From NCBI GenBank assembly GCA_903929895.1, contig CAIYWM010000325.1, positions 1 through 25,197 on the forward strand: a DNA stretch of 25,197 nt, written 5' to 3'. Positions 17,206 to 17,825 of this stretch are shown here, one piece after another. Every line of letters begins with the position of its first letter. The first letter of the stretch is position 1. Source of the DNA: an uncultured Alphaproteobacteria bacterium. Its GTDB lineage: Bacteria; Pseudomonadota; Alphaproteobacteria; Reyranellales; Reyranellaceae. Below the pieces are notes generated by a model, which saw only the letters and a program-made list of their open reading frames with translations, searched no databases and was not told where the DNA came from. Position numbers and translations under genes: made by a program.

Positions 17206-17825
<620 letters not shown>

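Follow-up and report, generated by a model that had tools for sequence, protein, structure and literature searches.

An in-frame amber codon interrupts an otherwise conserved ureG in the urease gene cluster of a draft Reyranellaceae genome

The DNA analyzed here, referred to as the window, is a stretch of 25,197 nt that constitutes contig C325 of an uncultured alphaproteobacterium. The draft assembly amounts to 5.26 Mb in 1031 contigs, is 84.46% complete with 6.85% contamination and probably of metagenome origin, and the source genus is by inference Reyranella, with a Reyranella draft among the nearest named loci and no sign of a pathogen noticed. A urease cluster lies on the minus strand of the window and comprises ureD (21827..22645; PF01774, E 1e-49), ureA for the gamma subunit (21475..21777; NF009712, E 1.3e-49), a fused urease beta-alpha gene, ureBC (19418..21463; beta model at residues 1-101, alpha model at 116-681), ureE (18927..19415; UreE domains, start taken from the frame), ureF (18251..18991; PF01730, E 3.8e-39), ureG and a hupE/ureJ-type gene (16618..17190; PF04955, E 6.3e-49). 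The same strand carries urtE, urtD, urtC, urtB and urtA (10960..16524), urea-transporter-type ABC genes with ABC_tran, BPD_transp_2 and Peripla_BP domains, whose urt names stem from a preliminary description of this DNA. A DUF3995 gene (PF13160; 17826-18299, minus strand) is located between ureF and ureG, overlaps the ureG start by ATGA, and is matched in 24 of the other genomes compared. The 681-residue ureBC fusion frame is free of stops in many same-genus genomes, and one TAG was found inside it in a genome of another family (G037). On the plus strand, a match to the Rfam family 5_ureB_sRNA (RF02514; 20688-20972, 94.9 bits) runs antisense to the part of the gene that encodes urease alpha and may simply mirror the conserved coding sequence on the opposite strand.

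Starting from ATG at 17829, the ureG frame meets TAG at 17598-17596, beyond which it stays open up to its regular terminal TAG at 17208-17206. The in-frame TAG is codon 78 (17596..17598, minus strand) and separates an N-terminal piece of 77 aa (17599..17829, minus strand), which harbors the P-loop and the CPH motif and matches TIGR00101 positions 2-72 (E 1.3e-35), from a C-terminal piece of 124 aa counted from ATG 17580 (17206..17580, minus strand), which contains NKID, ends in TAG and matches positions 80-193 (E 4.5e-57). With its one internal TAG read past by the search tool, the complete frame reaches 341.1 bits and exceeds the cut-off of 204.2, which neither half attains by itself (123.1 and 193.1 bits). 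The sequence and the matches of both halves thus confirm what the preliminary description had proposed, namely a TAG inside an otherwise intact ureG. The single open frame across P-loop, CPH motif and NKID that is expected of a working UreG is broken by this codon.

Conservation analysis showed that codon 78 encodes Glu in all 109 covering loci (86 GAG, 23 GAA) of a set of 110 besides the window's own two, in which the same genome may sometimes be counted via two routes; one locus did not cover the codon. Likewise, Glu is present in every one of the 118 proteins that cover the codon, out of 120 matches listed (as for every protein query), the other two not reaching this position. These comparisons bear out the earlier statement that the family has Glu here and that one changed codon accounts for the stop, and the proposed check in related genomes revealed no stop in any covering relative. 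A ureG match was obtained in 33 of the 36 same-genus genomes (all but G002, G013 and G019), and since none of these 33 carries an internal stop, loss of ureG is not a habit of the genus. Across the loci, proteins and same-genus genomes compared, the stop is therefore confined to the lineage of the window and the homologs are intact, the pattern of a recent nonsense pseudogene. Two short N-terminal UreG pieces from other sources among the 120 matches listed (P0170 and P0218, 85% and 81% identical) end one residue before codon 78; chance contig ends could account for their termini.

UreG is otherwise conserved, with four replacement differences, stop included, to the nearest relative (L033). Both halves retain the family residues except Met84 and Thr88, the latter private in comparison with four close relatives. 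Private changes in ureG amount to three replacements, stop included, and seven silent changes vs 5 and 51 summed over four relatives (Fisher P 0.09), so that the higher replacement share is suggestive only; in this gene-wise tally the greB row, read in a wrong frame, is excluded.

A second change restricted to the window affects urease itself, in its catalytic subunit. Residue 435 of the fused UreB-UreC is Pro (CCT, 20159..20161, minus strand), where the alignment of relatives has the second His of the flap motif VCHHLD; His is found in 120 of 120 listed proteins and in all 91 covering loci (94 loci, three not covering). Aligned via a close relative, the residue lies at position 321 of the solved chain 8hcn_C and adjoins His320 of the mobile flap. 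Replacement of the second flap His of Klebsiella urease by Ala has a mild effect, and Pro435 therefore need not be null. A literature search of limited scope found no measurement for urease residue 321 and no mention of 'His321'; in the sections available from one source, His320 and Cys319 of the Klebsiella enzyme are named as flap residues and flap closure is held necessary for urease catalysis (PMC7433671). The preliminary description had every other ure and urt gene whole, which is true of the open frames but must be qualified for UreBC by Pro435 in place of an invariant His.

Several controls address the reliability of the draft. A control contig, C160, offered 2,929 near-invariant sites in eight frames, compared across as many as 17 relatives. 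At these sites this draft has three lone deviants, compared with four in G008, five in G028, four each in G034 and G030, and 9 to 80 in the other thirteen genomes. In the window (thirteen genes, 2,872 sites, with urtB to urtE columns from 9 to 10 genomes), it has eight, while the nearer genomes G034 (contig ends at 18192), G028, G008 and G017 (covers 12897-22755) have 0, 2, 4 and 3, and G030, G015, G025 and G035 have 9, 12, 23 and 41, respectively. The eight are ureG codon 78 and L84M, UreBC I399L (a mild change that is found elsewhere too) and H435P, ureF A35S, urtB A20V and S425A, and urtE T90R. Over 89 picked frames (91,857 bases), the private replacement/silent changes of this draft come to 327/1424, while G028 and G008 have 344/1522 and 523/2025, respectively. 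Thus, the C160 deviants and the replacement/silent ratios speak against a noisy draft, and the window deviants are mildly raised vs the four nearest genomes.

In-frame stops gave a different picture. In frames kept open by two relatives, raw stops were seen in 7/83 and 6/91 cases here vs 2/85 in G028 and 1/76 in G008, an excess that keeps error possible. Among the stops in nine frames inspected by eye, most fell in shadow frames or ahead of the start codon, and the two convincing ones, in ureG and in ald, belong to this draft; three raw stops (L206 7135, L241 12515 and L238 1481) lay outside this inspection and are absent from the list of single-base nonsense changes. This list, with six entries here, four in G028 and six in G008, was judged by eye because automatic frame picking was wrong in places, the ureG region included. 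A codon-usage scan agrees in direction with the raw stop excess (23 in-frame stop sites in 420,430 bases here vs 8 in 355,719 in G028), and was not relied on; the ureG stop is not among its sites. The ald stop is a TGA at L241:15928-15930 (G000:C835) in place of a Cys codon present in both relatives, and the conserved gene is presumably that of alanine dehydrogenase. The draft contains a tRNA-Sec gene, and a search for a selenocysteine-type hairpin after the ald stop gave a fold no better than shuffles (z 0.16). Two candidate signs of error were rejected. First-position G>T plus C>A changes seemed raised (34 here, 16 in G028, 27 in G008) but were not significant over all replacements (46/327 here vs 94/867 for G028 and G008 combined, P 0.13), and private changes near the stop, which looked dense in part of a first list, were not significantly clustered once seven relatives were used (windows of 84 bases, P 0.55, and of 31 bases, P 0.98).

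The options named in the preliminary description (error, recent null mutation, suppression and a two-piece protein) proved a sound list, which our analyses rank rather than settle. A consensus error would mean that the cells have an intact ureG and the contig one wrong base, and the UreC change could then be a second error. The fragmented and partly contaminated assembly, the raw stop excess and the occurrence of both eye-convincing stops in this one draft argue for it, and of 73 interrupted genes that were re-sequenced in Mycobacterium smegmatis, 28 proved to be sequencing errors according to the portion of the study available (PMC1852416). Against this stand the C160 result, the replacement/silent ratio close to that of G028, the non-significant G>T plus C>A excess and the lack of significant clustering around the stop, so that we consider an error a serious but rather unlikely alternative. 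Suppression or readthrough, in which a suppressor tRNA or leaky termination would supply enough full-length UreG, has a parallel in bacterial in-frame stops under purifying selection, interpreted as frequent readthrough in the text accessible from one study (PMC7918605). However, TAG terminates ureG, ureE, urtA and greB, and the ends of 66 long frames picked in a sample were 42 TGA, 14 TAG, 6 TAA and four not at a stop; TAG thus closes 14/66 sampled frames, genome-wide recoding of TAG was rejected, and the earlier argument from the ordinary terminators holds. Moreover, the stop is absent from every relative compared, and none of the 25 tRNA loci found has the anticodon CTA. The suggested search for an amber suppressor was hence negative for a tRNA set too small to be complete, and such a gene could sit in the missing part of the assembly. 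Suppression is in our view the least probable of the readings.

Translation of UreG in two pieces, with the halves forming a working GTPase, would need a restart at ATG 17580 (17578..17580, minus strand; codon 84). This start, proposed in the preliminary description, lies close to the stop, 18 bases beyond its first base and six codons on; what had been missed is that relatives have Leu at this position. Only one of the 110 other loci departs from Leu, and among the 120 protein matches listed it is present in all 118 that cover the residue. Judged from these alignments, ATG 17580 is non-ancestral and almost specific to the window. The placement of this nearly window-only ATG so soon after the stop and the family residues kept in both halves, save Met84 and Thr88, fit a split protein. 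On the other side, the exceptional locus, L101, has Met84 alongside an intact codon 78 and tolerates it with no need of a split; the sole Shine-Dalgarno-like AGGA is 13 bases from the ATG; local RNA folding is no better than that of shuffles (z 1.37); among the 120 relatives listed for the C-terminal half, no piece beginning at residue 84 occurs; the same split was not seen in the 33 same-genus genomes bearing ureG; and the break cuts through a compact GTPase fold. A two-piece UreG is thus improbable. Slightly harder still to credit is its fuller form, a two-subunit GTPase whose fold would be divided after the nickel-binding CPH loop, ahead of the next helix, by a newly arisen stop and, six codons further on, a newly arisen start, with translational coupling of the pieces. 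If true, a two-piece protein would reveal a way of dividing a small metallochaperone GTPase, and only this unlikely reading would teach something new.

The explanation that we favor, with limited confidence, is a genuine and recent loss of urease maturation by an ordinary nonsense change in this Reyranella lineage. In line with this, a window-only stop at an invariant Glu coincides with a window-only change at an invariant His of the catalytic urease subunit, most controls gave no general error excess, notably the lone deviants on C160 and the replacement/silent ratio, and a profile search of the same, incomplete assembly, a check proposed earlier, found no second ureG copy. Loss is countered by the source, a single fragmented draft known from assembled sequence alone, by the conservation of the rest of UreG, and by raw in-frame stops that are commoner here than in two relatives. 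We infer that the TAG is real in the cells and recent. The nonsense change would be fixed or segregating in the lineage and would cut UreG at 77 of 207 residues, just past the CPH nickel motif and before the remaining GTPase fold. As described in the available text of PMC7408563, the CPH motif of UreG binds nickel, and UreG couples GTP hydrolysis to nickel delivery in a multi-protein complex needed for urease activation. Loss of UreG would thus prevent nickel loading into the urease apoenzyme and render urease inactive or nearly so; with probably no working UreG, little or no urease activity would be expected, and the window-only Pro in the UreC flap would fit relaxed constraint on the same enzyme.

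A nonsense loss of this kind implies some caution in annotation, since the cluster of urease and transporter genes looks complete and is probably without active urease, or has wrong bases. Most likely the outcome is an ordinary one, either a null allele in a conserved urease cluster or a wrong letter in a draft, neither of which is unusual. What is new here is the UreC flap change, the non-ancestral restart codon and the controls for draft quality, and a literature search of limited scope turned up no publication describing a nonsense mutation in Reyranella ureG. The locus resembles the interrupted coding sequences in which a conserved, otherwise intact gene has an in-frame stop in one genome, and which, in the sections available from the study concerned, comprised both authentic mutations and sequencing errors (PMC1852416); the genes were re-sequenced there, whereas the ureG stop is known from an assembled, probably metagenomic draft alone. 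It also resembles the proposed readthrough stops, likewise located inside genes otherwise under purifying selection, but that argument, as far as the accessible text goes, rests on conserved stops (PMC7918605) and the ureG stop was found in a single genome. Finally, natural urease-deficient strains, such as those of Streptococcus thermophilus covered in the available part of PMC6951406, have likewise lost urease in a lineage with urease-positive kin. In contrast to one case there, in which the entire operon is deleted according to the title cited, a single accessory gene carries the stop here and the operon is still standing.
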